Made by a program: the position numbers and the translations under genes. Below, piece by piece: positions 13,204 to 28,070 of a stretch of DNA of 64,000 nucleotides; position 1 is the first letter of the stretch; every line of letters starts with the position of its first letter. The notes under the pieces were generated by a model. The model did not search any database. It was not told the DNA's origin and worked only from the letters and a program-made list of their open reading frames with translations. The stretch comes from Candidatus Bathyarchaeia archaeon (lineage in GTDB: Archaea > Thermoproteota > Bathyarchaeia > Bathyarchaeales > Bathyarchaeaceae). Where the stretch lies: assembly GCA_035283685.1 (NCBI GenBank), contig DATETJ010000002.1, positions 186,001 to 250,000 on the forward strand. The letters run 5' to 3'.

Positions 13204-14793
13204 CTATAGCCTTCCGATTTTGTATCGTGAGAGGCTTCCAGCCTTGCTCCTCAGAGCGTACAGGTAGTCAGCCAGCAAAAGTGGCTCCTTGCCCAGCTCC
13301 AGTGTAGTTTCCAGCGTCTGGGTGTCAGCGAGCAAACGGTATTCAACGCTTGTAACGCGGTAGTAGCCGTCAACGTTCTCGTTGGGCAGAGTCACCCAGA
13401 TCTTGTCGCCTGCCAGAATGGGCGTGGTGCCGTAATCTATCACGTCGCTGGCAACTCGAATGTACTCACTTGGGCTGCTCAGCTGCTCATGCAACGCTTT
13501 GGCTCGCAGTAGGCATTCGTTGTCGCTGTGCAACTCCTCATCAGTTTCCGATAATTCACGCATGCCTAAACCGTAAGTGGCGCTCCATCGAGCCCTGTTA
13601 AAGAAAAGATTGTCAACCCAAAAGCTGCCAGTGCCAGTTCCGCTGAAGTGCATGTCCCACCAAACTTCGCTGATGACTTCCCAGTTGAAGGTTAAAACAT
13701 CGCCCCACCATTCGTCCGCGTATTTCTTGCCAACATTGCATTTCTGCGGATACCACTTGTCAGGTTGAATTTGAAACTCTCGGGAAACGAGCTTCGCACT
13801 ATTGTCTTCGAGAGTAATCGTTGCTTGGCCGCTGAAGGCTGATTCAAACCTAATTAGAAGCTGCAACGACGGATACTTGTTCAGATTGGGCTCCCAGCCG
13901 GAGGGGATGATGAGGCGTAGTCGTCCGTAATAGTCGGGTGTACTCGTAGTATGCTTCACGCTGTACGCGCCTACAGCCTTGTTTGCGCTGTCCAGCGATA
14001 CGTTGCCCGTGCCTGTGCCGCTGACCCAATCGTTTATCGCATCGCTGTTGAAGTCAAGCGTTTCAGTCCAAGAGTCGCCGTCGCTTGGATACTTTTTCTC
14101 AGCGGCTCCGAAAACCATGATTTTGTCGCGTTTTCTGAAGACGCTTTTACGGTATTCGCTGACTTCCAATCGGTCGGCGAGGCTTACCTGCGATGTCTTG
14201 CCGTTTCTTGGAAAAAACTCGAATTTGCCATCAGGCGCTATTCGAAAGTCGTAGCCAATTGCGCCCGTTTTGTCAGCTGTGTTGGCAATGTACTTCAATA
14301 TGTCGAAGGCAGGCGCATTTTCATAATCAAGCTTGGTGTAAGTCGTATCCGTGCCCTCGACAAGTTCCATAGAGTTTCTGACGTGTGAAAGCCCGATGAA
14401 AGTGTCAACCAAGTCTTTAACGATGGCTTCGCCTTTCTGATTCTCATACGTCTTGGTTACAACGCGGCGGAAGAGCCGTTCACCCCAGCATCTGCCTAAG
14501 ACGCGCAGGTAATTTTCACCCAGAGAGCTTGACTGCGCCTTGATTTCTTCAACCGTTATCGTTGCGACTGGGGGACAGTTGACGCCTCTGCCTATGCTGA
14601 TGCTGCCGTCCACGCCAACATCAATCGGATAAGAACCGCCTAGGCTGTACTTCTTATCGAAATTCTGCAGAAGGCATTCGAAGCTTGAGACTTCATCCGT
14701 GCAGCCCAAGTGCACCCTCAGCTCAGCCACGTCGCCTTGAGGAGGCGTAACGGAGCCAAACACAACCGCGCAGACAGGCAAGGCTAGGCTCAT
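13204..14793 (-). CDS. Tail hub/baseplate protein with inserted beta-sandwich domain
   Basis: 529 residues. Residues 1-240 and 405-529 look like a phage tail hub (gp27/gpD-like): AELRVHLGCTDEVSSFEC near the start, NAPAFDILKYIANTADKTGA, DKIMVFGA, and late GDKIWVTLPNENVDGYYRVTSVEY. Residues ~241-404 are different: DFNSDAINDWVS, a YSVKHTT strand, PSLQLLIRFES, and a WWDMHFSGTGTGSFWVDNLFF ending, the pattern of a carbohydrate-binding-module-like jelly roll. So a glycan-binding domain appears inserted between hub halves. It follows the tape measure gene by 1 nt. Confidence 0.75.
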   Translation of the reverse strand: MSLALPVCAVVFGSVTPPQGDVAELRVHLGCTDEVSSFECLLQNFDKKYSLGGSYPIDVGVDGSISIGRGVNCPPVATITVEEIKAQSSSLGENYLRVLGRCWGERLFRRVVTKTYENQKGEAIVKDLVDTFIGLSHVRNSMELVEGTDTTYTKLDYENAPAFDILKYIANTADKTGAIGYDFRIAPDGKFEFFPRNGKTSQVSLADRLEVSEYRKSVFRKRDKIMVFGAAEKKYPSDGDSWTETLDFNSDAINDWVSGTGTGNVSLDSANKAVGAYSVKHTTSTPDYYGRLRLIIPSGWEPNLNKYPSLQLLIRFESAFSGQATITLEDNSAKLVSREFQIQPDKWYPQKCNVGKKYADEWWGDVLTFNWEVISEVWWDMHFSGTGTGSFWVDNLFFNRARWSATYGLGMRELSETDEELHSDNECLLRAKALHEQLSSPSEYIRVASDVIDYGTTPILAGDKIWVTLPNENVDGYYRVTSVEYRLLADTQTLETTLELGKEPLLLADYLYALRSKAGSLSRYKIGRL

Positions 14794-14794
14794 T

Positions 14795-15265
14795 CTAGTA
14801 TTCGACTCCTCGTCGGTAGTACTCGTCTTCGCCTGCTCGCCGAATCAGCCGCGATGAAGGCGCTCTAGCCAATTCCGTATTGTACTCTCGCTGAGCGCTA
14901 GCCGCGTCGCGTGTGGAGCTTGCCAACCAACTCATGTAAGCAGCAGTTGCCACAATCAAGCCTGCGCCCAGCGTTAACAAAGCAATTTTCATAGCTAAAG
15001 CCGAGTTCAAAAGCCAAGTAGCCGCTGACGCAGCGTTAGTTGCCACAGTCTGCGCCACCTGAGCCACAGTTGACGTGCCAAGAACAGCTCTCAAAGAAGT
15101 GAACAAGTGAACAGCAGTCATAATGCCCGTTAACATGCGTCCTGTTTGCGAATCCAAAGCGCCAAAACTGTAGGCTAAATGTACCGCATCCATAGCAATC
15201 GCGCGGAACGCGTAGCTGGCACGGTTCTCAGCGCGTACAGCCACGCTTATCTCATGGAAACTCAT
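14795..15265 (-). CDS. Very short tape measure protein
   Basis: 156 residues. The sequence has the helical, Ala/Ser/Thr-rich and hydrophobic character of a tape measure central region: AVHLFTSLRAVLG, ATNAASAATWLLNSALAMKIALLTLGAGLIVATAAYMSWL (one or two membrane-like spans) and a charged, Arg-rich tail. Its place between gp10-like/chaperone genes and the hub is the classic tape measure position. Tape measure length sets tail length, and the usual size is 500-2000 residues, so this would give an exceptionally short tail, or the gene is a deletion relic. It overlaps the preceding gene by 4 nt and the reading frame is clean. Confidence 0.65.
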   Translation of the reverse strand: MSFHEISVAVRAENRASYAFRAIAMDAVHLAYSFGALDSQTGRMLTGIMTAVHLFTSLRAVLGTSTVAQVAQTVATNAASAATWLLNSALAMKIALLTLGAGLIVATAAYMSWLASSTRDAASAQREYNTELARAPSSRLIRRAGEDEYYRRGVEY

Positions 15266-15636
15266 GTGGCAGCCGCCTCCGCAACGGCTTCTGCTACGGC
15301 TTGATTGACCCTTTGCACCAAACTTGGCATACCCAACTCCAAAGCTCGGCTCAAAAAGCGCCTAGCCCGCAGAAAACGCGTTCCAAACTCCACAAAACGT
15401 GCATACCCGGCTCTAGCGCCTAACTTGAAGGTCCACTCGCCTATTCTCTCAGCATAGACGGTGCTCGCCAAGTAGCCGCTGCGTCTAGGCGCCAAGCTTT
15501 GAGCCAGGGTCTGCATGCTGCGAACCTCTGACCCAAGCGCGTCATCAACATGGATACGCAGGTTCTCGTCTAACCGTTCAAGTTTACGTTGCAGTTCAGG
15601 AAGCCCTTGCACATTGACTGCCATTTCAACCGACAT
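15262..15636 (-). CDS. HK97 gp10-like neck protein
   Basis: 124 residues from ATG 15636 (ATG 15624 also possible). Typical gp10-like features: QGLPELQRKLERLDENL helix, SLAPRRSGYLASTVYAER, and GARAGYARFVEFGTR in the middle, with helical end. In HK97-type phages this protein lies between head closure and tail terminator; here it is moved to after the tail chaperone and before the tape measure. It overlaps the frameshifted chaperone product by 11 nt and the tape measure by 4 nt. Confidence 0.75.
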   Translation of the reverse strand: MSVEMAVNVQGLPELQRKLERLDENLRIHVDDALGSEVRSMQTLAQSLAPRRSGYLASTVYAERIGEWTFKLGARAGYARFVEFGTRFLRARRFLSRALELGMPSLVQRVNQAVAEAVAEAAAT

Positions 15637-16161
15637 GAAAACGCGCCTCTCTCTTAGCTTTGGCCACCTCGCCTTCGGTCTGCCGGTCAACTTCGCTTAG
15701 GATCACGATGAACTCCTCGACGGTTTTAGCTGACTGCTCTGCGAGTTGGACAGGTGTCCACCCGAATTCTTTGCACAGGCGGAACATTGTGAGTGTTGGG
15801 TGCGGTTTGCCTCGTCGGATTGCGCTGATAAAAAACGTTCCTCATCCCGAGTTATGCCACAGAGCCTATTTGCCACTTTGCAGAACAGTTCGCCTAACTC
15901 AACTGGTATGCCGTCTTCGTCGCCGAGTAGCTTCTCGAACGTTACAGGTTTGTGCGCTGGCTGCTCCCTTAAGCTTGCCCAAATAGTTTCAGCTTGGATG
16001 GCAACGAAGTCGCTGCCCACAACCTGCCCGGTTAAAGCATGATATTTGGTGTGTTTCTGGATTATGCGGCTGCGTTTAGCCCACGTGATCTCTTGGAAAA
16101 CGTAGCTGCCAGCGTATTCTTTTCCAAAGCGATCGTCAATCTGGATGGTTTCGCTTCGCAT
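15626..16161 (-). CDS. Tail assembly chaperone with -1 programmed frameshift (G/GT type)
   Basis: The zero frame runs from 16161 to a stop at 15703 (152 residues), but its last ~40 residues are Ser/Gln-rich and non-protein-like. A slip of -1 at the slippery heptamer 15835-15829 after codon 111 opens a frame with a conserved-looking segment (GKPHPTLTMFRLCKEFGW, then QLAEQSAKTVEEFIVIL) ending at 15626, giving 178 residues. Nearly all tailed viruses with long tails make G and GT chaperones from such a signal, which together coat the tape measure. N-terminal part: ITWAKRSRIIQKHTKYHALTG. Gene order (tube, small protein, chaperone, tape measure) fits. Confidence 0.78.
15829..15835 (-). promoter_or_regulatory. 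-1 ribosomal frameshift site T TTT TTA
   Basis: On the minus strand the zero-frame codons read CGT TTT TTA, forming the canonical X XXY YYZ heptamer U UUU UUA. After a -1 slip the codons read TTT TTT ATC AGC. No stimulatory stem-loop could be confirmed by eye. Confidence 0.75.
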
Positions 16162-16359: not shown

Positions 16360-17214
16360 TTAGCTGATGACTACGTCTCGGGCAACAAACGGCGCCTTCA
16401 AAGAGACAAGGTCTTCAACTTTTGTCGGTGTGCCCACCCGTTCCCATTTGCAGTACTTGAATAGGGCGCTGCTGGTTCCGCCTAACCCGAATTTGAGGCT
16501 GAAGTCGCTGTCGTTGAGCACGTCGTCGTATTCCTGCTTGCTCTCAAACTCAAACGTTAACTCGCCAGCGAGCACTCTGTGGCGCTCCTGCAGATACTTG
16601 AGCAAATGCCCGCTTGTGCTGCGAATAACGGGCACGCGTTTCAAGTTGTTCTCAACTCGGAATTTCCAGTCAACCACTCGCTCCACCGTAGCTAAGCCTG
16701 AGCCGTCTCCAGCGCCTCGTTGCACATAGCTTTCGTAGAAAGGCACAGCTCCGTTGTAGTCCGCGTATGTAGCGCCAACTATTTTGCTGGTTCCCACAGC
16801 TATGTCTTGACCGATTAATTCGGCTGAGGCTTTAACTAGGTCTTCAACTGAGCATTCAACTGCTACTTTGTCGATTCGGCATCCTTTGTGGAGTAGGTCG
16901 ATGACGCCGCTGGGTTTTTCGTAGAAAACCTCAATGCTCAGCGAATTCAGCGTGGTTACGTGCTGAAGCAAGTTGATGGGCGCATCGCTTGGCAACGCAT
17001 ACGACACTTTCAAATCGACGTGCCTTAAGCCTCGGCGCACAGTTTGAAGGTCTCTTGAGCCCAAGCCTCGTAGTTTAACTAAGCCTGGGTCTAGGGCGGG
17101 TTCAACGTTGTCCGCCGTAGCCACGCCAAGCATGCTTGGGTTCGTGGGCGTCACGCCAAAGGTTGACTCTTGCACGTAGTAGATTCGGGCTTCATGTGCT
17201 CCGTAAACGCTCAT
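16360..17214 (-). CDS. Major tail tube protein
   Basis: 284 residues. It begins MSVYGAHEARIYYVQESTFGVTP, the common opening of long-tailed-phage tube proteins, in which a strand is followed by an 'E.TFG..P' turn. Later segments (RHVDLKVSYALPSD, RIDKVAVECSVEDLVKASAELIGQ, ELTFEFESKQEYDDVL) alternate beta strands with one helix, as in TP901-1/SPP1-type tube subunits. The subunits form hexameric rings around the tape measure. Position between tail terminator and chaperone is as expected. Confidence 0.8.
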   Translation of the reverse strand: MSVYGAHEARIYYVQESTFGVTPTNPSMLGVATADNVEPALDPGLVKLRGLGSRDLQTVRRGLRHVDLKVSYALPSDAPINLLQHVTTLNSLSIEVFYEKPSGVIDLLHKGCRIDKVAVECSVEDLVKASAELIGQDIAVGTSKIVGATYADYNGAVPFYESYVQRGAGDGSGLATVERVVDWKFRVENNLKRVPVIRSTSGHLLKYLQERHRVLAGELTFEFESKQEYDDVLNDSDFSLKFGLGGTSSALFKYCKWERVGTPTKVEDLVSLKAPFVARDVVIS

Positions 17215-17232: not shown

Positions 17233-18237
17233 CTATGTTGCGGGTACATTTTCAAACATCCATCCAATGACTAGAAACTCCGTGTGCAGTAAGAAGGGCT
17301 TGACAGACACGTCGTCAGCATCGTGGAAAGTGCCGAATTTAATGTGGGTCAAGCCTTCCACGGTTAAAGTGTATTTCACATAGTCGCAGTGGAGAACGGC
17401 TGGAATTACGCCGTCGCTCGGGTTAGTCGTTCTGGCTAAGAGATGGATGTAGCCGACGCCTGACGAGTCCATCTCAATGAAATCGGCTAGGTTTGTTGTC
17501 AGTGTGATGGTGATCGTTTCATCGGAGCCGCCTGAGCCAGTTTGCACCTGTTCCCACGCAGACGAGACGTGATTCCAAACTTTGATTGTGACGCCGTTGC
17601 CAGATGGAGCTGTGCCGTAGCCCTCCAAACTCAGAACGATCTTGTTCACGCTGTTTTCATGCGGATCATACTTTGAGGTCTCAAGTTTGATCTTGAAAAG
17701 AGTCATGGCGTATTCAAGGTTCACCGAGGTTGACTTGCTGACTCGGCTGTCGTCGCTGTACCACAGATTCTGATACTGTACCGCTGTGAATTCAACCCAG
17801 CTCGACGAGGAAGGCGTTAGCTCCGCTGTGGAGGCAGCTTGATAAGCATCGTGAGGTCCAGCTAAGCCAAGACCACAGAAATCGCACAATGTTTCATTTG
17901 GGCTGAACCTCTTCTGGCGCACGAGGCGCAAAATCTCTTCGCGTAGCTTCGAACGAGTCCTGTTTCCAGTTTGCTTTCCAGCTTTGTCGACGACCCAGCA
18001 GTCAACTTTGAAGTTTAGAACGCGCTGGGTTAAAGCGTGGCTAAGGCTTACGGGCTTTATTGAGCTTGCTTGCCGCAGTCCAACTGTGACTTGCCCGTCA
18101 TAGTTTTTGAGTAGTTCGCGGTCGTACCATTCGCGGCTTGCGTAAACGTTTGCGATGCTGTTGTCGTCGTTGACTACGCGAATGTTGGTCTTGAACAATC
18201 GCACCAATGTAGTAACTGGGTCTTCAATTTCAGTCAT
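17233..18237 (-). CDS. Tail terminator-like protein with large inserted beta domain
   Basis: 334 residues from ATG 18237, which overlaps the stop of the preceding gene as ATGA. Residues 1-125 (DPVTTLVRLFKTNIRVV, REWYDRELLKNYDGQVTVGL, VLNFKVDCWVVDK, SKLREEILRLVRQKR) match neck/tail-completion proteins, and the final ~35 residues (IKFGTFHDADDVSVKPFLLHTEFLVIGWMF, split) return to that fold. Between them, about 165 residues form Ser/Thr-rich beta strands (VNKIVLSLEGYGTAPSG, VTIKVWNH, YIHLLART), looking like a jelly-roll module. Terminators are usually ~120-140 residues, so the insertion more than doubles the protein. Confidence 0.7.
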   Translation of the reverse strand: MTEIEDPVTTLVRLFKTNIRVVNDDNSIANVYASREWYDRELLKNYDGQVTVGLRQASSIKPVSLSHALTQRVLNFKVDCWVVDKAGKQTGNRTRSKLREEILRLVRQKRFSPNETLCDFCGLGLAGPHDAYQAASTAELTPSSSSWVEFTAVQYQNLWYSDDSRVSKSTSVNLEYAMTLFKIKLETSKYDPHENSVNKIVLSLEGYGTAPSGNGVTIKVWNHVSSAWEQVQTGSGGSDETITITLTTNLADFIEMDSSGVGYIHLLARTTNPSDGVIPAVLHCDYVKYTLTVEGLTHIKFGTFHDADDVSVKPFLLHTEFLVIGWMFENVPAT

Positions 18238-19655
18238 TGCCCAACAAGCCTCCTGCACACGGCTCTGCGGTAAAGCGTGTCGCCTTGAAAATCAAACTCT
18301 TGAAGCTCGGTTACTTGGTAGTCGACGCCTTTGCGACGAATTTTGTCATGGTGTCGAATGGGAGCGAAGACATGAACGATGATGTAGTCGGTTATGATGT
18401 AGCCGGCTTCAGGGGTGACTTCTTCCACTTGGCTGGGCGAAACCATGGCTTTGATGTCGACGCCTTCGCCATACGTAACCGTGTCTAATGCCTCTCGAAC
18501 TGGAAATAGAGTTACGTTTTCGCCTCGTGAACGTAAGATCTGAGTGAAACGGGTTATTGGATCCTCGTAGTAAAGGAACAGCTGCGAAATCCAAGCAACC
18601 GTAGCCACTGCATTCTTGTTTTCCACATAACTGTAGTCGGCGTGTTTGACGCCCCAAAACATGAATTCCTCCTGATGCCCCTCGATGATTTTCATGCTGT
18701 GTTCAAAGCTTGATTTGTCATGGTTCTTGCGAAGCTTCCACAGGATGCCTGCTGTGACAGCGTCGTAATAATCGCAGGCTGGAAAGCGGCTTGCCACATC
18801 TATGTAGCCTGCCCAACAAACCGCTGGGTTGTACGCTGGATACTGACCGCTAGCTCGAATCGAGTTGATGAAATCGTAAACGTTCTCAACGGATGGACTC
18901 CAACCTTCAGAATCGTAGAGCCCGAGCAATGCGTAAGCCAACGGGTCATCGTAGACTTCGTTTTCGCTGGTTCCAACCCTGTGCCATTGTCCGTCGCCGC
19001 TTGGAGGCGGTCGATACTCAAGCCAAAAGCCTTCAAAACCAGAGCGCAGAAATCCACCCAAATCGGCTATCATGCTTTCATACAAAGTCTTGTTCGCTGG
19101 GTCCTCGGTAACCAGCATTTTCAGGGCTATGAGTCCGTAGAGGTTTTCGATGTCCATCTCGGGAAGCCAGGCGTCCGCGTCTGACACGGCGCGGGCAAAG
19201 CCCCCGTAATACTTGTCGTGCACGCTGGGGATGGGCGGGTTCTGCATGTTGAGGAGAAATGTTGCTCCAGCGAGTTTAGCTGCGTTCAGATAGGCTCCAG
19301 TTCCAGTTAGCGTGTAGGCACGGAGAAGAGATGGAATAACTCGGCAGGCGTCTATGCTGTAGTAGTAGGTGCTGGTTTCGGTGCTTTTGAATCCGCCGTA
19401 AGCCTTCTTCTCAGGATCAGCCGCGTACTGCTGAGTCAGTAGCCAGTCTGCCAGTGACACCACTTTAGCGTAGATTTCAGCTTGCTTAGACTCGAATTGT
19501 TTGGCGTTGTAGGCTTCGGTTAGGAAGTCGATTGCGAATGCTGCTGCAAACGCGGCTCTGCCAAACGACAAGTCTGGACCAGATTCGGGCACCACGTAAA
19601 CGTAAGGTGCATAATCCATGATGAACTGGTAATAACTGTCTGGAACCGTGCCCAT
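18234..19655 (-). CDS. Alpha/alpha-toroid domain fused to a head-closure protein
   Basis: 473 residues in one uninterrupted frame. Residues 1-365 look like a helical toroid of the kind seen in glycosidases, lyases and terpenoid-cyclase-like proteins: repeated helix pairs with Tyr/Trp/Gly turns (AYGGFKSTET, YYGGFARAVSD, MDIENLYGLIALKML, YDDPLAYALLGLY, NPAVCWAGYIDVASR). Residues ~366-473 match a phage head-closure protein: TRFTQILRSRGENVTLF, VDIKAMVSPSQ, TDYIIVHVFAPIRHHDKIRRKGVDYQV, LYRRAVCRRLVG. The gene sits where head closure is expected, between adaptor and terminator. The toroid's activity is not assignable, though acidic residues cluster near MDIE (167-170) and YDDP (235-238). Confidence 0.72.
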   Translation of the reverse strand: MGTVPDSYYQFIMDYAPYVYVVPESGPDLSFGRAAFAAAFAIDFLTEAYNAKQFESKQAEIYAKVVSLADWLLTQQYAADPEKKAYGGFKSTETSTYYYSIDACRVIPSLLRAYTLTGTGAYLNAAKLAGATFLLNMQNPPIPSVHDKYYGGFARAVSDADAWLPEMDIENLYGLIALKMLVTEDPANKTLYESMIADLGGFLRSGFEGFWLEYRPPPSGDGQWHRVGTSENEVYDDPLAYALLGLYDSEGWSPSVENVYDFINSIRASGQYPAYNPAVCWAGYIDVASRFPACDYYDAVTAGILWKLRKNHDKSSFEHSMKIIEGHQEEFMFWGVKHADYSYVENKNAVATVAWISQLFLYYEDPITRFTQILRSRGENVTLFPVREALDTVTYGEGVDIKAMVSPSQVEEVTPEAGYIITDYIIVHVFAPIRHHDKIRRKGVDYQVTELQEFDFQGDTLYRRAVCRRLVGQ

Positions 19656-19660
19656 ATCCT

Positions 19661-20014
19661 TCAGGTCCTCTCCACGGTTGGTTCACGCAGTTTGTCCAGC
19701 ATACGAGTTAGCTCAGTCTGCAAAACATCTAACGGCGGCGCCTTGCTGAGCGCACTGACGTTTTGGTCGCCTACAGAGAAGCTTAAGCCCACAGCTGAGC
19801 CGCCTGTAAGGTAGCAGACGGCGTAGATAGCCGAGAGAACTGTTATGAACTCTTTTTCAGCATCGGTGCAGTTGCTGTAGTCAATTTGGCGGTTGACTTC
19901 CAGCTCCAGCGCCACTTCAGCTCGTTTAATCATCTTCAAAACCCTGCTGTCCGAAACTTCAGCCGACGAAATGTTGATCACATCGCGCACGTCATCGACA
20001 GAAACGCTAGCCAA
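19661..20014 (-). CDS. Head-tail adaptor (gp6-like)
   Basis: 117 residues from TTG 20014, preceded by GAGTGAG. It is largely helical: VSVDDVRDVINISSAEVSDSRVLKMIKRAEVALELEVNR is the usual adaptor opening, in which a short motif selects a helix pair. A LSAIYAVCYLTGG helix and a C-terminal LQTELTRMLDKLREP helix follow. Adaptors of the HK97 gp6 class form a 12- or 13-mer ring under the portal. Followed after 5 nt by the toroid/head-closure fusion gene. A decayed copy of its first ~20 codons lies just upstream. Confidence 0.75.
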   Translation of the reverse strand: MASVSVDDVRDVINISSAEVSDSRVLKMIKRAEVALELEVNRQIDYSNCTDAEKEFITVLSAIYAVCYLTGGSAVGLSFSVGDQNVSALSKAPPLDVLQTELTRMLDKLREPTVERT

Positions 20015-20333: not shown

Positions 20334-20415
20334 CAGAAGCTTAAGTTTTTTGATCTGTTTTGGATAGCTTTAATTGTTTCTTATGATAATATTGATTATT
20401 TGGAGAGAGAGTTCT

Positions 20416-22776
20416 TTGAGAGCGAATAGACGGTATTTGGTTGCAGTGGCTTTGTTAGTTGCTTTAGCTATTGTGTTTGGTTTAGTGGGCACGGTTGCGC
20501 CTCCATTGGCGGAGCCTGTTGCGCCTCAGCAGGAGTCGTCTTCGTCTTCATCGTCGTCTTCGAATTCAACTGGGCATTTCCAGAATCCACCAACATATGA
20601 CAGCGGCTGGGTGGACATAACAACTAAGGCTGGGCAGTATGTTACTTTGAGGCATGGTTTGAACACGAGTGAGGTGGTTGTTGACATAACGGGTAAACAG
20701 AGTCTCGACCCGAATGGCGGCTCCTTAGCATGGAGCAAAACATACGGAGGAACAAGCAATGATTATGCCCTTTCTGTGGTCCAGACCAGCGACGGAGGAT
20801 ACGCAATGGCTGGCAATACCAACTCTTATGGTGCTGGCGGCGGTGATTTCTGGTTGGTTAAAACCGACTCGGCTGGAAACCATCAGTGGAACAAAACATA
20901 CGGAGGAACAAACGCTGACAATGCTCTTTCTCTGGTTCGGACGAGCGATGAAGGGTACGCGTTGGTCGGATACACCGACTCTTTTGGTGCTGGCAACCGC
21001 GATTTTTGGCTGGTTAAAACTGACTCGTCTGGAAACATGCAGTGGAACAGAACATACGGAGGAACAAGCAATGACCGTGCCTATTCTTTGGTTCAGACTG
21101 GTGACGGAGGATACGCCTTAGCGGGCAGCCTAAGTGGCGATTTTTGGCTGGTTAAAACTGACTTGTCTGGGAACGCACAATGGAACAGAACATATGGAGG
21201 AACAGGCGGTGACTTCGCTCAGTCTTTGGTTCAGACTGTTGATGGAGGATACGCAATAGCAGGCTACACTAACTCTTACGGTGCTGGCGGCTATGACTTC
21301 TGGCTGGTTAAGGTGAACGCTGAGATGAATTTGGAACATCAGAGAAACCTGGGCATCGATTCTTACATAGACGTATGGAGCCGAACATACGGAGGAACAG
21401 CCAGTGATATTGCCTATTCCGTGGTCCAGACCAGCGACGGAGGATACGCAATAGCAGGTGATGGTTTCGCGAACTTGGTCAAGACTGATTCGGTTGGAAA
21501 CGTACAGTGGAGCAGAACATACGGAGGAACAGCCAGGTCTGTGGTACAGACGATTGATGGAGGATACGCAATAGCAGGTTCTCTCAGTGGTTTCCAGCTT
21601 GCTAAAACTGACTCGGCTGGGAACATGCTATGGACCAAAACATATGGATCAGGCACTGTCTATTCTATGGTTCAGACCAGCGATGGAGGATACGCCTTAG
21701 CAGGCGCCATCAGTCCCTATGGTGAATACGAAGATTTCTGGTTGGTTAAGACTGATTCGGCTGGTGCCATGCTGTCGAACAAAACATACAGAGGAACAGA
21801 CTCTACAGGAGGAACATACTATTCCAGGGAAGATGCCTATTCTGTGGTTCAGACGAGCGACGGAGGATACGCCTTAGCAGGCGCCATTGGGTGGGGGTCC
21901 CGGGATGTCTGGTTGGTTAAAACCGACGCTACTGGAAACCATCAGTGGAACAAAACATACGGAGGAACAAACTGGGATGAAGCCCGTTCGTTGGTTCAGA
22001 CGGGCGACGGAGGATATGCATTGGCTGGCTACACCAACTCCTATGGTTATGCTACTCCAACGTACCCTAATTTCTGGTTAGTTAAAACCGACTCGTCTGG
22101 CAATGCGCTGTGGAACAAAACATACGGAGGACAATACCATGACTATGGCTATTCTGTGGTTCAGACGAGCGACGGAGGATATGCATTGGCTGGCTATACC
22201 CAATCTTATGGTGTTGGCACCCCGACTTACCCTAATTTCTGGCTGGTTAAGACTGATTCAGCTGGAACCATGCTGTGGAGCCAAACATACGGAGGAACTT
22301 ACGAAGACGATGCCTATTCTGTGGTTCAGACAAACGATGGAGGATACGCGTTGGCTGGTCGTACAATATCTTCTGGTGCCGGCAACTATGATTTCTGGTT
22401 GGTTAAGACTGAGGGTAAGAAAGAAATGGGTTTGGAGATGACAAGCTTAACAAACAACGCAATAGTCCTCTATCGTGGCAAAACCGACCTCGACTGGAAT
22501 TACATGCGCGTGCGCATATGGCTTATCAAGGAGCCTTCTTGGATTTACGGCGACATCAACATGGACGGATTAGTCGACGCCAAAGACCTATACATACTCA
22601 GCAGGAACTACGGTAAAACCTTCAGCCTACTCAGCCTAAGCGGCATCATAGCAATAACAAGCATACACACAATCAAAACACGAAAACAACGGAAACCTCT
22701 CAACAGGAAACCTTCACCAACCGAAACGTTAGAAGCACTATGGCAAGCCTTCCAAAAGAAAAAAGCCAAAAAATAA
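20416..22776 (+). CDS. Secreted 11-repeat propeller-like surface protein with dockerin motif
   Basis: 786 residues from TTG 20416, chosen because GGAGAGA lies 7 nt upstream; a longer frame begins at 20374. A signal or anchor segment (YLVAVALLVALAIVFGLVG) and a Ser-rich linker lead to GWVDITTKAGQYVTLRHGLN. Eleven ~45-55-residue repeats follow, with consensus YSVVQTSDGGYALAG...DFWLVKTDSAGN..W.KTYGGT, likely blades of a beta-propeller. After them come MGLEMTSLTNNAIVLYRG and NYMRVRIWLIK, a dockerin-like EF-hand (GDINMDGLVDAKDLYIL), a hydrophobic span and a basic tail. It is on the strand opposite to the viral operon it interrupts. Surface adhesion is inferred. Confidence 0.78.
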   Translation: MRANRRYLVAVALLVALAIVFGLVGTVAPPLAEPVAPQQESSSSSSSSSNSTGHFQNPPTYDSGWVDITTKAGQYVTLRHGLNTSEVVVDITGKQSLDPNGGSLAWSKTYGGTSNDYALSVVQTSDGGYAMAGNTNSYGAGGGDFWLVKTDSAGNHQWNKTYGGTNADNALSLVRTSDEGYALVGYTDSFGAGNRDFWLVKTDSSGNMQWNRTYGGTSNDRAYSLVQTGDGGYALAGSLSGDFWLVKTDLSGNAQWNRTYGGTGGDFAQSLVQTVDGGYAIAGYTNSYGAGGYDFWLVKVNAEMNLEHQRNLGIDSYIDVWSRTYGGTASDIAYSVVQTSDGGYAIAGDGFANLVKTDSVGNVQWSRTYGGTARSVVQTIDGGYAIAGSLSGFQLAKTDSAGNMLWTKTYGSGTVYSMVQTSDGGYALAGAISPYGEYEDFWLVKTDSAGAMLSNKTYRGTDSTGGTYYSREDAYSVVQTSDGGYALAGAIGWGSRDVWLVKTDATGNHQWNKTYGGTNWDEARSLVQTGDGGYALAGYTNSYGYATPTYPNFWLVKTDSSGNALWNKTYGGQYHDYGYSVVQTSDGGYALAGYTQSYGVGTPTYPNFWLVKTDSAGTMLWSQTYGGTYEDDAYSVVQTNDGGYALAGRTISSGAGNYDFWLVKTEGKKEMGLEMTSLTNNAIVLYRGKTDLDWNYMRVRIWLIKEPSWIYGDINMDGLVDAKDLYILSRNYGKTFSLLSLSGIIAITSIHTIKTRKQRKPLNRKPSPTETLEALWQAFQKKKAKK

Positions 22777-23878: not shown

Positions 23879-24868
23879 TTACCATGCGTGGGGCAAGTTG
23901 TTCATCACGGCGACGCCCTTGCTGCGCAAAACGCCAAGCCCGATGCGCTCGCTGGCAACAATGCCGAAGACTCCGTTTTTCGGGTCCTCATAGGTCTCAG
24001 TGGTTAGGTCTCTGCGAACCAGCATTATTGCAGCAACCGACTTGTCAACAGCAAACACTTGGTTATAGCCTGTCTGCCCAGTGTCCTGCGGCACAAGACT
24101 CGACTTGAACAACCGCATCGTAAGCGCCTGCCCGATCAGACCACGAGTCAACTCGACTTCCGACGATGGCAAGTACTGGCTATTAATGAACTCAGTGGCA
24201 GTGAAAAGCTCGCTTACCTGAAGCGGACGCATAAACATCGTATCAGGATGAAAATCCTCGCCCTCAATCGCATTCCAAACTTGGACTAGCTTGTTCCAGC
24301 TGAAGTCAGTGCTCAGGCCAGCTTGCTTTGCGCCACCCGCAAGATCCCCAACTGCTATAGCATTGTAAAGGTTCAGGACCTTCTCAGTTTCTTTCTCCGC
24401 GATGCTTCTGCCCAACTCCTCAAGCTGTCGATTGAACACGTTCCACTTGGCGTCTTCAGCAAACTCACGAGTCCATTCAATGCCATCTTTGATGATGATG
24501 TTTGTTTGAATGTCAACAGTGTCATAGCGTTCCCCATGAATGCGCACGGTGCCACTCTCAGACGCCACATAAGCCACAGATTTCTTCGCTCTTGGAAAAC
24601 GCTCCAGCACCTCACTCGTGGTTCTCACATCGGTTATCTGCCTACTGATCAAATTCGGCTTCGCAGCCTCAACCACCGTGTCATGGATACTTCCCAAAGC
24701 TCCAGCCATGTCGCTCAAAATGCCCTCTTTCATCCCCGTCTTCAGATACGCCATGCAAAACGGATTCTTGAAAGCCGTTTTCACCTGCACGTCCACATGC
24801 TGCTTGTACCACTCCTCATTCACAAGCGCTTCGTGAAGCCTTGGCAAAACCAACTCAGGCAAACCCAT
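23879..24868 (-). CDS. Major capsid protein, HK97 fold
   Basis: About 329 residues. The N-terminal arm (to ~residue 70) leads to SESGTVRIHGERYDTVDIQTNIIIKDGIEWTREFAED (the E-loop/spine region, given in parts), a long helix EELGRSIAEKETEKVLNLYN, and FHPDTMFMRPLQVSELFTA typical of the P-domain. The A-domain end is GYNQVFAVDKSVAAIMLVRRDLTTETYEDP, then FGIVASERIGLGVLRSKGVAVM, the usual capsid C-terminus. Subunits form the icosahedral head. It overlaps the stop of the 32-residue gene, and the gap to the next gene (90 bp) fits a separate highly expressed capsid cistron. Confidence 0.85.
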   Translation of the reverse strand: MGLPELVLPRLHEALVNEEWYKQHVDVQVKTAFKNPFCMAYLKTGMKEGILSDMAGALGSIHDTVVEAAKPNLISRQITDVRTTSEVLERFPRAKKSVAYVASESGTVRIHGERYDTVDIQTNIIIKDGIEWTREFAEDAKWNVFNRQLEELGRSIAEKETEKVLNLYNAIAVGDLAGGAKQAGLSTDFSWNKLVQVWNAIEGEDFHPDTMFMRPLQVSELFTATEFINSQYLPSSEVELTRGLIGQALTMRLFKSSLVPQDTGQTGYNQVFAVDKSVAAIMLVRRDLTTETYEDPKNGVFGIVASERIGLGVLRSKGVAVMNNLPHAW

Positions 24869-24966
24869 CATTCCTCCAATCGCTTGACTCTGGCTTCAAG
24901 CTCCCTGACTTTCGCTGTAAGCACTGCATTGTCCCAAACTTCATCCTGCGTCTCTGTGTCACTCAT
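24868..24966 (-). CDS. 32-residue coiled-coil protein
   Basis: ATG 24966 to TGA 24868; the stop overlaps the ATG of the capsid gene and the start lies 6 nt after the cement protein stop. It reads MSDTETQDEVWDN then a heptad helix AVLTAKVRELEARVKRLEE. Too short to assign; tight coupling on both sides supports it as a real gene. Confidence 0.6.
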   Translation of the reverse strand: MSDTETQDEVWDNAVLTAKVRELEARVKRLEE

Positions 24967-24972
24967 AGCCGA

Positions 24973-25401
24973 TCACTTCGCCACGAAAATGCTGATCAAA
25001 TCGTCAGCCGCTGTTGCCGACTGCTCCGCCACACCAAGCTTCAAAGTCCAACTGACCGTCGCTGTCCCACCCTCGTTAATGTCCGCCAAAGCAACGACCC
25101 GTCTGCTTGAATCTGCGCCCTTAACCGCCTTGCCTCGAGTAATCGAGCCGCCGGCTTTCACTTTCACTCTGCCTCGCACACAAACAGGACACATGACGCC
25201 AACAGCCGCATCCTTCACGGCGATCCCAATGCAATTCTGATCTGAAGTGGCAGGGCTTACCTTTCCATCACTGCTCAGGTAAACCGGATCTCCCCTAGTC
25301 ACCGCAGCTGCAGCCTCGTAATCAGCCACGAAAGCGCCTGAAACAGGCTCCAACAAATCGCCAATCGAAAGATTAGGCAACCCAGTTAAATCAGCCATCA
25401 C
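24973..25401 (-). CDS. Capsid cement protein (DUF2190-like)
   Basis: 142 residues (ATG 25401 or 25398). The pattern VADYEAAAAVTRGDPVYLSSDGKVSPATSD...CIGIAVKDAAVG...VRGRVKVKAGGSITRGKAVKGADS is that of DUF2190/phage decoration proteins, small beta-tulip trimers that stabilise HK97-type heads. It lies between the protease/scaffold gene and the capsid gene as usual. Intact. Confidence 0.8.
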   Translation of the reverse strand: MMADLTGLPNLSIGDLLEPVSGAFVADYEAAAAVTRGDPVYLSSDGKVSPATSDQNCIGIAVKDAAVGVMCPVCVRGRVKVKAGGSITRGKAVKGADSSRRVVALADINEGGTATVSWTLKLGVAEQSATAADDLISIFVAK

Positions 25402-25474: not shown

Positions 25475-26530
25475 CTATGAAGGAGCAAACTCACGCAGCA
25501 CAGCCTTAACTCTCTCAGCGAACAGTTTAGGTCCACTGCCAAGCCACCGCAGCTCCGTTGCTCTGTCAGGAAGCGCGCCGCCCAAAGCCTCATGAAAACG
25601 CTTCAACCTCTCCCTTTCACTCTTAGCCTGCTTCCCAGCGTCCACAAGCCTAGCCTCCACCTGCACGAGTTGCCTACGCAAAGCAACCAAATCCTCAGCC
25701 ACGGGCGAAGACTGTTCGCCTCCAGTCGACTCGGTCAGTCCAGGTTTTGCTGCCAGCCCAGCCACCGTGCCCTCTAACTTCGCAAACCTCTCGCTAACCC
25801 AGCTGCTAAACGACTCGAATCTCTGCATAAGCTGAGCAACTTTGTCATCCAACGTTTGGGCTGGTGAAACAACCAACTGCTCCACAACCGCGTTCCAAAA
25901 CCGTATGAACGCATCTTTGTCTCCCGGGGGAAACTTTCTGAGCAGATGAACGCTGGTTAACTCAAAGTTGCGCGGCGCCACGCCATTCATGTATTCGACT
26001 TTGCCGCCGCTACGAAGCCAATTCAACTCAATGCTGACGCCTTTGAACTCCTTGTTGCGAATCCGCTCAGCTACTTCATCGTCGACTACGCCCTCGTATG
26101 CCACGCCATCTTCAACAGGATCGTACCATGACTTGGTGATCATGTTGGGTGGCGGCAGCACGAACAGGTGATCAATGCCGAACGGTTTGCCCTCAAGCGT
26201 GGGCGCAGCCTTCTCTAGCTCCTCCTTCAAATAGACGTGCTCTAAGCCTTCTTCAGGATGAAAGATTCGCTTTGGATGAATGCAGACGCCAGAAACTCTG
26301 CGCCCCTCGAGCTTCATGGACTCGCTGAACAAATGCAACTTCTGATTCTCGCTTTCACCCACATAGATGGGCTTTCCAGCCTTCTGAAAGGCTGTTGTGC
26401 AAATCGCGAAGGCGCTCCCTTTCTCATGCCCCTGCTTCATCACCCGTTGAACACAGTCTTCAAACTCAGACGTGCGCTGTTTCTCCACACTCTGTTCTGT
26501 TTCTTTTTCCTCTGGCAACTTGATTTTCAA
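25475..26530 (-). CDS. Prohead protease/scaffold-type protein
   Basis: 351 residues from a TTG whose TTGA overlaps the portal stop. Residues ~20-50 carry FEDCVQRVMKQGHEKGSAFAICTTAF, a motif common to phage proteins processed with the capsid. Residues ~65-215 look like a DUF2213/DUF2184-like prohead serine protease (KLEGRRVSGVCIHPKRIFHPEE, GKPFGIDHLFVLPPPN, FKGVSIELNW, FELTSVHLL). Residues ~230-351 are helical and charged (QRFESFSSWVSERFAKLEGTV, LRRQLVQVEARL), a scaffold-like tail. It would guide capsid assembly and be cleaved away. The catalytic residues are probably the early His and the GVSIE Ser, by analogy. Confidence 0.7.
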   Translation of the reverse strand: MKIKLPEEKETEQSVEKQRTSEFEDCVQRVMKQGHEKGSAFAICTTAFQKAGKPIYVGESENQKLHLFSESMKLEGRRVSGVCIHPKRIFHPEEGLEHVYLKEELEKAAPTLEGKPFGIDHLFVLPPPNMITKSWYDPVEDGVAYEGVVDDEVAERIRNKEFKGVSIELNWLRSGGKVEYMNGVAPRNFELTSVHLLRKFPPGDKDAFIRFWNAVVEQLVVSPAQTLDDKVAQLMQRFESFSSWVSERFAKLEGTVAGLAAKPGLTESTGGEQSSPVAEDLVALRRQLVQVEARLVDAGKQAKSERERLKRFHEALGGALPDRATELRWLGSGPKLFAERVKAVLREFAPS

Positions 26531-27792
26531 CCTCCAACTTTCGATTGAACTATTACCTCTTGCTCGTCAAGCGGTAACTTTGCAACATCGCGGAGAATCT
26601 TCCGCAACTCCTGAACCGTGATGACGTCACCGCCAACTTTCTCAATTATGCTGACCAAATGGCCCAGAAGCTGCACGAGTTTTTCATAGTCTAGGCTTTC
26701 AGGCATGCCCCAGTTGAGGCGAACCCGCGCCTGCGCCGGGTCCAGACCCGCCTGCGCCACCACCGTGTCAAAAAGATAACGTTCCACCCCACGCTTCAAA
26801 AAGCGTTGAACAGCTTGAACTCGCCTCTCAGCAATCGCTAGAGCTGCCTTTGCGCTGGCTTCAGTGAAACCCGTCTTGGTGACAAGCTTCGCCAACGGCG
26901 TCTGCAAACCCAAGATGAATTCATCTTGCAGTGTTTCCACGTAGAAGTCAAGTCCACGCATGCGCTCGGCCACAATCGGCTGAACCTTAGCTTCAGACCC
27001 AGCTGGCGGGTTGAAAACAAATCTCGACCCGCGTTGAGGAATGCTCTTGATCTGTGCAAAAAACTCTTGAAGCCGCTCCTTGCTCAACCCGGGAAAACTC
27101 CACAACTCGTTGGGCGCGCCAAACATGTAAATCGTGTCGGCCATGCCGCTGTGAATCTTCGCCTTAATCTGATAGAAAGCTTCGCGCGTCTCGCCATTTC
27201 CAATATCTAGTGGCGTGCACAGCGACTGTAGAACGCCTATGCCCAACGGTTTAGCAGTCAAAACATTGTAAGCTAAGTGAATGACTTCATCGCCCTGAAT
27301 CTCGCTCGGTTGGCGCTTCCAATCCAACTCGATTCTGTCAAGATGGCCATCTGCATCAAACTTCACGCCGTTGTCCTTAACGATTTCCAAGGGCAGCAAC
27401 CTGACAAACTCGATTCGCTTGGCGTTGCCAGTCCACCAGAAAACGTTTCCCCAGCCTACCAAATAGCGAGCAGACTCCTGCAACACTTCGTCTATTCCCT
27501 GCTCGGCGCAAAACTCGTCCACCAACTCCTTGCCTGTTCTGCCATCACTTTTCTCAACGTATCCTGTGTTCATCGTGGTGTAGAAGCCTGCACCCGCAAT
27601 TTGATCGGCGAGAAAATCAACACTGGCTCGAGCAGCCAAATCGCCCAAGTAAACCTTACTCATGGTCTTGAAGCTGATGTCAGGCGAGACACCCATAACC
27701 TTCTCAGTCGTGGTCAAAAACAAAGCCGTGCGATGCGTAAGAGCCTCACCAAAACGGCTGAGGACACGCTTCAAAGGATTGAGCATCGCCAT
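26527..27792 (-). CDS. Portal protein
   Basis: About 421 residues from ATG 27792 (ATG 27786 and 27840 possible). Portal hallmarks: YLGDLAARASVDFLADQIAGAGFYT near the start, IDEVLQESARYLVGWGNVFWW, QGDEVIHLAYN...LGIGVLQSL, and the late LGLQTPLAKLVTKTGFTEASAKAALAIAERRV helix, then FDTVVAQAGLDPAQARVRLNW. Portals form the 12-mer DNA gateway of tailed virus heads. It is the first recognisable gene of the operon. The region upstream (27793-28058) holds no terminase. Confidence 0.82.
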   Translation of the reverse strand: MAMLNPLKRVLSRFGEALTHRTALFLTTTEKVMGVSPDISFKTMSKVYLGDLAARASVDFLADQIAGAGFYTTMNTGYVEKSDGRTGKELVDEFCAEQGIDEVLQESARYLVGWGNVFWWTGNAKRIEFVRLLPLEIVKDNGVKFDADGHLDRIELDWKRQPSEIQGDEVIHLAYNVLTAKPLGIGVLQSLCTPLDIGNGETREAFYQIKAKIHSGMADTIYMFGAPNELWSFPGLSKERLQEFFAQIKSIPQRGSRFVFNPPAGSEAKVQPIVAERMRGLDFYVETLQDEFILGLQTPLAKLVTKTGFTEASAKAALAIAERRVQAVQRFLKRGVERYLFDTVVAQAGLDPAQARVRLNWGMPESLDYEKLVQLLGHLVSIIEKVGGDVITVQELRKILRDVAKLPLDEQEVIVQSKVGG

Positions 27793-28070
27793 AGTCAGCT
27801 TCCAACTCCATGTTGTTCTTGGCTTGCCCGAGAAAACCAAAGAATGAAGCCGTGCAGCCCTCTATCTTGAGCCTCTTGCGAGCGTCTCCAACCGTGCGCT
27901 TCACTCGTTGGCTCTCGGGCTGCCAACCTAAGGAATACGCGTTTTCAAAAGATAAGTAGTGTTGTGCGCTTTGCACACCTCAGTTTCGTTTTTCTCTCTC
28001 TGCACTCTCTTCAATTCTAGTTCACAACAATTGGTTTAACCATCATGACCTAAACTCGATGTTTTGCTTG

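Follow-up and report, generated by a model that had tools for sequence, protein, structure and literature searches.

The window which we have analysed is a stretch of 64,000 nt from the genome of a Candidatus Bathyarchaeia archaeon (contig DATETJ010000002.1). It carries the capsid, neck and tail genes of a provirus, which run from position 27840 down to 13204 and are listed in Table 1. One of the neck genes codes for a single protein of 473 aa, in which a toroid made of helices is followed by a head-closure protein, or stopper. Its reading frame goes from ATG to TGA with no interruption. It starts 5 nt past the end of the 117-aa gene found upstream, and its stop codon shares an ATGA overlap with the ATG of the following gene. 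The first-pass annotation had described an uninterrupted frame with tight junctions on both sides, and this is what we find. The gene is present as a single copy in its own genome and has the adaptor-position gene on one side and the tail terminator on the other, as expected for a stopper. We are almost certain of the architecture itself, a toroid fused to a head-closure protein.

Table 1. Features of the provirus in the window (positions of the 64,000-nt stretch)
Feature	Position	Strand	Evidence
Fused gene, N-terminal (alpha/alpha)6 toroid and C-terminal head-closure (stopper) protein, 473 aa	18234..19655	-	Intact ORF, AF2 model, >100 loci
Toroid domain, residues 1-365	18561..19655	-	Foldseek PDB matches; Pfam C5-epim_C in 48/56 members
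Head-closure domain, residues 366-473	18237..18560	-	Foldseek BFVD; profile matches; stand-alone homologues L101:6126-6503, L347:1686-2024
Putative head-tail adaptor (first connector)	19661..20014	-	Position, size; synteny in almost every locus; no family match
Putative tail terminator, 341 aa, start probably 18237, beta-sandwich inserted	17233..18258	-	AF2; short forms elsewhere
Lectin/CBM-like beta-sandwich in terminator, model residues about 114-292	17359..17895	-	Foldseek, low TM; absent from short forms
Tail tube protein	16360..17214	-	PF18906 Phage_tube_2 E=1.3e-15; phrog_290
Conserved gene after tube, putative tail assembly protein	15703..16161	-	Synteny; no family match
HK97-gp10-like tail completion protein	15262..15690	-	PF04883 E=5.7e-5; phrog_5 E=1.6e-19
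Putative very short tape-measure protein, 156 aa	14795..15265	-	Position; weak PHROG tail matches only
Putative tail hub/baseplate protein	13204..14793	-	Weak YQBQ / VgrG-related / phrog_400 tail matches; synteny
Major capsid protein	23879..24871	-	PF25209 E=7.5e-7; phrog_267
Capsid cement protein	24973..25401	-	PF09956 E=4.3e-11
Portal protein	26527..27840	-	phrog_12 E=1.4e-8; Phage_portal E=0.0035

Dozens of loci have the same gene order, which runs from the adaptor-position gene through fusion, terminator, tube, two further tail genes and the short putative tape measure to the hub. The size of the tape-measure protein would imply a short tail. Between the capsid gene and the adaptor there is cargo, an 800-aa repeat protein (20374-22776). 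The terminator also has an additional part. Its model (AF2 pLDDT 87, pTM 0.81) contains about 170 extra residues in the middle of the protein, when compared with the forms of about 150 aa found in other loci (L101, L104, L127 and L347; L and G are our labels for loci and genomes). In Foldseek this insert matches lectins, CBM22 and baseplate proteins of phage phi812, with modest or low TM. L104 and L127 have the toroid without the terminator insert, so the two additions are separable.

The same type of provirus has been described as BATPV1 (PMC11705971), a complete provirus whose record, JAAKEZ010000002, contains our locus L112; there the fusion occupies L112:8001-9392. The words "connector", "head closure" and "glycosid" are absent from the main text of that paper. 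In the genome of the window the terminase most similar to that of BATPV1 is found at G000:C2:177163-178479, on the same strand as the structural genes. Beside it there are a small-terminase-like gene and others homologous to those which come after the hub gene in BATPV1. The hub gene and this terminase are about 20 kb apart, with mostly host-type genes between them (G000:C2, about 179600-199200, which corresponds to window positions 1 to about 13200 plus the preceding 6.4 kb). Judging from this gene arrangement, the provirus of the window is therefore probably split and inactive; the frame of the fusion is nonetheless intact.

The fold of the fusion was predicted with AlphaFold2 from an alignment of 56 relatives. 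The two folds are predicted with high confidence: for the whole chain the mean pLDDT is 93.4 and the pTM is 0.92. Both the predicted structure and the extent of the stand-alone head-closure relatives place the domain border where it had been proposed, between residues 365 and 366. The N-terminal part is formed in the model by twelve helices in an (alpha/alpha)6 arrangement, and a structure search finds sugar-active enzymes as its nearest neighbours, which supports the toroid proposed in the first-pass annotation. Its best PDB matches in Foldseek are glucose, cellobiose and N-acylglucosamine 2-epimerases (top entries 8h1n and 4z4l), 3ren, PssZ, the unsaturated glucuronyl hydrolase of GH88, GH8 and GH76. 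The highest TM by target, 0.70-0.72, is given by 3ren. We take the family of 3ren to be GH126, which is GH8-like, and that of PssZ to be GH8.

The fold is thus shared with carbohydrate enzymes such as the AGE 2-epimerases, GH8/GH126, GH88, GH76 and glucuronyl C5-epimerase, but identity with the toroid enzymes is only about 10-14% and the family signals are weak. The window protein alone has no significant match in Pfam or PHROG. Over the 56 members Pfam gives weak signals of C5-epim_C (48 of them), GH88 (seven) and GH76 (two). For C5-epim_C the best E value is 1.6e-5; the window copy scores 13.9 bits, below the cut-off of 23.3, and it reaches no other curated Pfam cut-off. A single scanned member, L090, exceeds a cut-off, with 25.0 bits for C5-epim_C; the matches to GH88 and GH76 stay below theirs. 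The C5-epim_C model also scores on unrelated cellular toroid proteins, so its matches are a signal of fold rather than of activity. A profile built from the viral proteins retrieves cellular (alpha/alpha) toroid proteins too, of the GH76, GH88, GH127 and pectate-lyase type. We could not place the toroid in any single enzyme family; C5-epim_C is a promiscuous signal among toroid proteins.

AGE-type epimerases have a conserved pair of catalytic histidines. The toroid has the (alpha/alpha)6 fold of AGE, but no histidine is invariant in the 56 sequences: H225 is found in only 52 of them. Membership of AGE is contradicted in the alignment by this absence. Enzymes of GH8 and GH126 use a catalytic Glu at the start of an inner helix, with an Asp as partner. 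In the alignment residue 93 is E in 52 of the 56 sequences and D in the other four, and D298 is invariant. The catalytic residue set of no known toroid family could be confirmed. The earlier suggestion of a possible enzyme stands as regards the fold, which is nearest to sugar-active enzymes, while the word enzyme is still an inference. Several relatives (L051, L055, L056, L058, L061 and others) have an insert of about 65-75 residues at toroid residue 24-25, which in Pfam weakly resembles the K1-lyase Rider domain.

The fusion is strongly conserved. In the alignment of 56 sequences 47 columns are invariant; they include W163, W224, W281, W334, W355, D28, D236, D237, D298, Y275, Y284, Y296 and Y297. 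The mean pairwise identity is 61% in the toroid and 54% in the closure half. Toroid enzymes keep their active sites in the loops which lead into the inner helices. In the fusion the invariant residues are not significantly enriched in these cavity-side loops (33/182 against 26/183, p=0.32).

The last 108 residues have the fold, the profile and the adaptor-terminator slot of known stoppers (SPP1 gp16 type, Phage_HCP PF05521, PHROG 161 and 501 "head closure Hc1", Pam3 connector 8hdr). In Foldseek they match head-tail joining or closure proteins among the viral models of BFVD, with TM by target about 0.6-0.7. The profile of the closure family matches 8hdr with E=1.8e-4. The best scores among the members, all obtained with relatives of the window protein, are 2.8e-5 for Phage_HCP, 1.7e-5 for phrog_161 and 7.3e-10 for phrog_501. 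Fold and profile agree with the head-closure assignment of the first-pass annotation. The known stoppers listed have about 100-130 aa, whereas here a toroid of 365 aa stands ahead of the barrel. Fused and stand-alone forms can be aligned together from the first helix through the conserved CRRL end; the fused domains lack about eight residues of an early hairpin (DPETGDLAITW) which is present in the stand-alone forms (columns 27-45 of the alignment). No conserved start codon is found at the domain border in the alignment of relatives. An ATG at codon 350 occurs in 35 of 55 relatives, in a position inside the last helix of the toroid, and we find no support for a separate short closure-only product from an internal start. 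A match to this domain turns up in a different context in genome G009: the topoisomerase VI B subunit at L102:5327-7411, with 694 aa and the gene of the A subunit directly after it, has a C-terminus which can be aligned to the head-closure domain (E about 1e-9 if the single protein is used, 5e-33 for a profile which includes the L102 protein). The alignment suggests a possible capture of the viral domain by a host gene.

A search for the same fusion in other archaeal genomes was positive. In IMG/VR at least 114 stretches encode relatives, of which 80 were kept; both halves are present wherever the full length is available. The relatives show 46-82% identity and lie between the same genes. Dozens of Bathyarchaeia genomes also contain them: the fusion is found in 24 of 101 related genomes, and the toroid half is matched in 44 of 257 genomes of the class. 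Some genomes have several copies, with seven matches in G141 and five in G069. Almost all the genome records of the GTDB collection which have the fusion are labelled Bathyarchaeota. One exception among named records is L128, whose contig has been assigned to Njordarchaeum, perhaps through an error of binning. When 398 genomes of the phylum were sampled, full-length matches occurred only in the order of the window itself, and isolated phages gave no significant relatives of the fusion. Short matches to residues 2-40 in G032, G167, G179 and G181 correspond to truncated proviruses and not to a new architecture. In truncated proviruses (L198:1-276, L199:2134-2355, L200:8476-8634 and L103 from 6387 on) the fusion gene is broken near codon 25-30, or 105. 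In L198 and L103 the broken gene continues into the hub gene: the proviruses have lost the tail module and keep the head-side genes.

We also surveyed the proviruses by their tail tube protein. The fusion is present in all 56 window-like contigs which reach the closure gene; the other 23 end at or near the terminator and the closure gene is not found in them. From 160 fused and 12 stand-alone loci we took 58 rows for an unrooted tail-tube tree, on which a single branch (97/92 support) divides the fused from the stand-alone state. The fusion was therefore gained or lost once. A gain of the toroid is only the more economical reading, because plain closure proteins are the rule elsewhere.

The sister lineage has a stand-alone closure protein of 112-125 aa in the slot of the fusion. 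Such relatives are found in L101 (genome G008, a frame of 125 aa), in the IMG/VR loci L284-L287 and in the lineage of L347 and L354-L360. Another Bathyarchaeia provirus, L203, has a plain head-closure protein of 113 aa at the same place. From the 12 stand-alone loci it follows that closure is possible without a toroid. Other genes of these proviruses deserve mention. In L347:2003-3507, and also in L353-L360, two extra genes are found between the stand-alone closure protein and the terminator; they code for a beta protein of 113 aa and for P0002 (L347:2353-3507), a helical protein of 384 aa. The latter is possibly a toroid encoded separately; homology of P0002 with the toroid was not detected, and it has weak matches to the GH8 glucanase 5czl (E 0.22) and to an oligosaccharide-amylase model (E 0.036). 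In L101:3081-5238, the spot from the capsid gene to the adaptor, we recognize by eye a nucleotide-sugar epimerase and a glycosyltransferase. L101:12682-13683 codes for a tail-region protein with weak matches to GH32/GH43/GH130 beta-propellers, another virion protein of glycan type.

We propose that the fused gene of this Caudoviricetes-type provirus codes for its stopper, which bears an (alpha/alpha)6 toroid at the N-terminus. Once the DNA has been packaged, the beta-barrel of the C-terminal half would dock as a ring below the adaptor and seal the head. The ring would be a hexamer as in other long-tailed phages, since the stoppers of solved phage necks are hexameric (PMC10276861, PMC12886913). 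Six toroids would then be carried outward and form a collar around the neck. We infer this display from the closure half only. With less certainty, the cavity of the toroid would bind, and probably process, an archaeal surface glycan (of the S-layer or of an envelope glycoprotein) when the virus adsorbs, enters or is released. The adjacent terminator would help in this with its lectin/CBM-like insert. Handling of glycans is the most likely job of the toroid because of its fold family, the aromatic and acidic invariant residues, the lectin-like neighbour and a precedent in an archaeal siphovirus, HFTV1, for which a virion-borne glycan-active turret domain has been proposed (PMC12494034). We give the whole mechanism, a stopper with a neck collar of toroids which binds and probably processes a host surface glycan, a probability of about 0.55. 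It is more tentative, and in our opinion rather short of an even chance, that the head-closure ring is itself a carbohydrate enzyme: about six toroids of the glycosidase, lyase or epimerase type would be part of the DNA seal of a virus lineage and act on archaeal surface glycans from the neck and not from the tail tip, together with the lectin domain of the terminator.

The toroid might instead be a non-catalytic collar, a dead enzyme fold which stiffens or pads the neck or which bridges adaptor, stopper and terminator, in the manner of the neck decoration of phage 812. It is attached to the N-terminus of the stopper, and in R4C-like stoppers a long N-terminal extension reaches the adaptor (PMC10276861); in phage 812 separate decoration proteins of the stopper and the terminator appear to reinforce the neck (PMC12886913). 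The spread of invariant residues across the whole toroid, with no concentration in the cavity, also agrees with a structural part. However conservation is higher in the toroid than in the closure domain, many invariant Trp, Tyr and Asp residues of the toroid lie in loops before the inner helices, more than one would expect from packing alone, and the sister lineage manages without it. We consider a purely structural collar unlikely, although it deserves attention. A lectin-like adhesin which binds a host surface glycan for reversible adsorption, with no cleavage, appears still less probable. The carbohydrate-binding neck passage structures of lactococcal phages (PMC10684548) and the lectin/CBM-like insert of the terminator speak in its favour, but a pure binding site should diversify with the host and the toroid keeps its average identity of 61% across 56 divergent viruses.

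One could also think of an artefact of frame, assembly or annotation, or of a passenger domain without function, given that the provirus of the window is probably defective, with its terminase about 20 kb away behind host-type genes. Against this, more than 100 independent contigs conserve the fusion over its full length, their frames are intact and the invariant residues are kept, and the fusion corresponds to one branch of the tail-tube tree. A frame artefact, which the first-pass annotation had already judged unlikely, is ruled out by this conservation, and the passenger alternative is in practice refuted as well; we leave it a negligible probability.

The first-pass annotation knew of no connector with such a domain. 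For the toroid this agrees with our search: in the literature covered, which includes few subscription journals, we have found no description of an enzyme-like toroid on a stopper. It is less true for added domains in general. The stopper gp97 of Staphylococcus phage 812 (PMC12886913) also has an extra domain which faces outward, in a neck decorated with sixfold symmetry; but that domain is an external beta-sandwich, not an enzyme-like toroid, and the decoration proteins of 812 come from separate genes. The NPS of phage TP901-1 (PMC4493119) has a glucoside-hydrolase-like C-terminus, and thus a glycosidase-like domain at the neck as proposed here. In contrast with the fusion, NPS is a separate protein with which the phage can dispense; its gene stands at the end of the structural module, and it is not part of the stopper. 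Cleavage of glycans by virion parts away from the tail tip has been proposed or reported for P22 gp4 and for the turret hub protein of HFTV1, whose host is an archaeon (PMC12494034). According to the same paper the former, a peptidoglycan/murein hydrolase, is inserted in the head structure and the latter belongs to a capsid turret with a deacetylase-like domain, both unlike a toroid on a stopper. Neck glycosidases and accessory domains of stoppers are known separately; the combination of toroid and stopper was found nowhere in the literature covered.

Few parts of tailed virions are as small and as conserved as the stopper; here a whole lineage keeps fused to it a domain more than three times its size. 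It illustrates clearly the accretion of a domain by a core virion protein, whose unfused state survives in a sister lineage. The particles of these viruses probably have a collar of domains which bind or cut sugars, and the fusion suggests that the neck is where these viruses deal with the glycan coat of the host. The Bathyarchaeia are archaea of sediments, and for those which are uncultured the fusion offers an expressible single-chain target from which their surface sugars may be learned.
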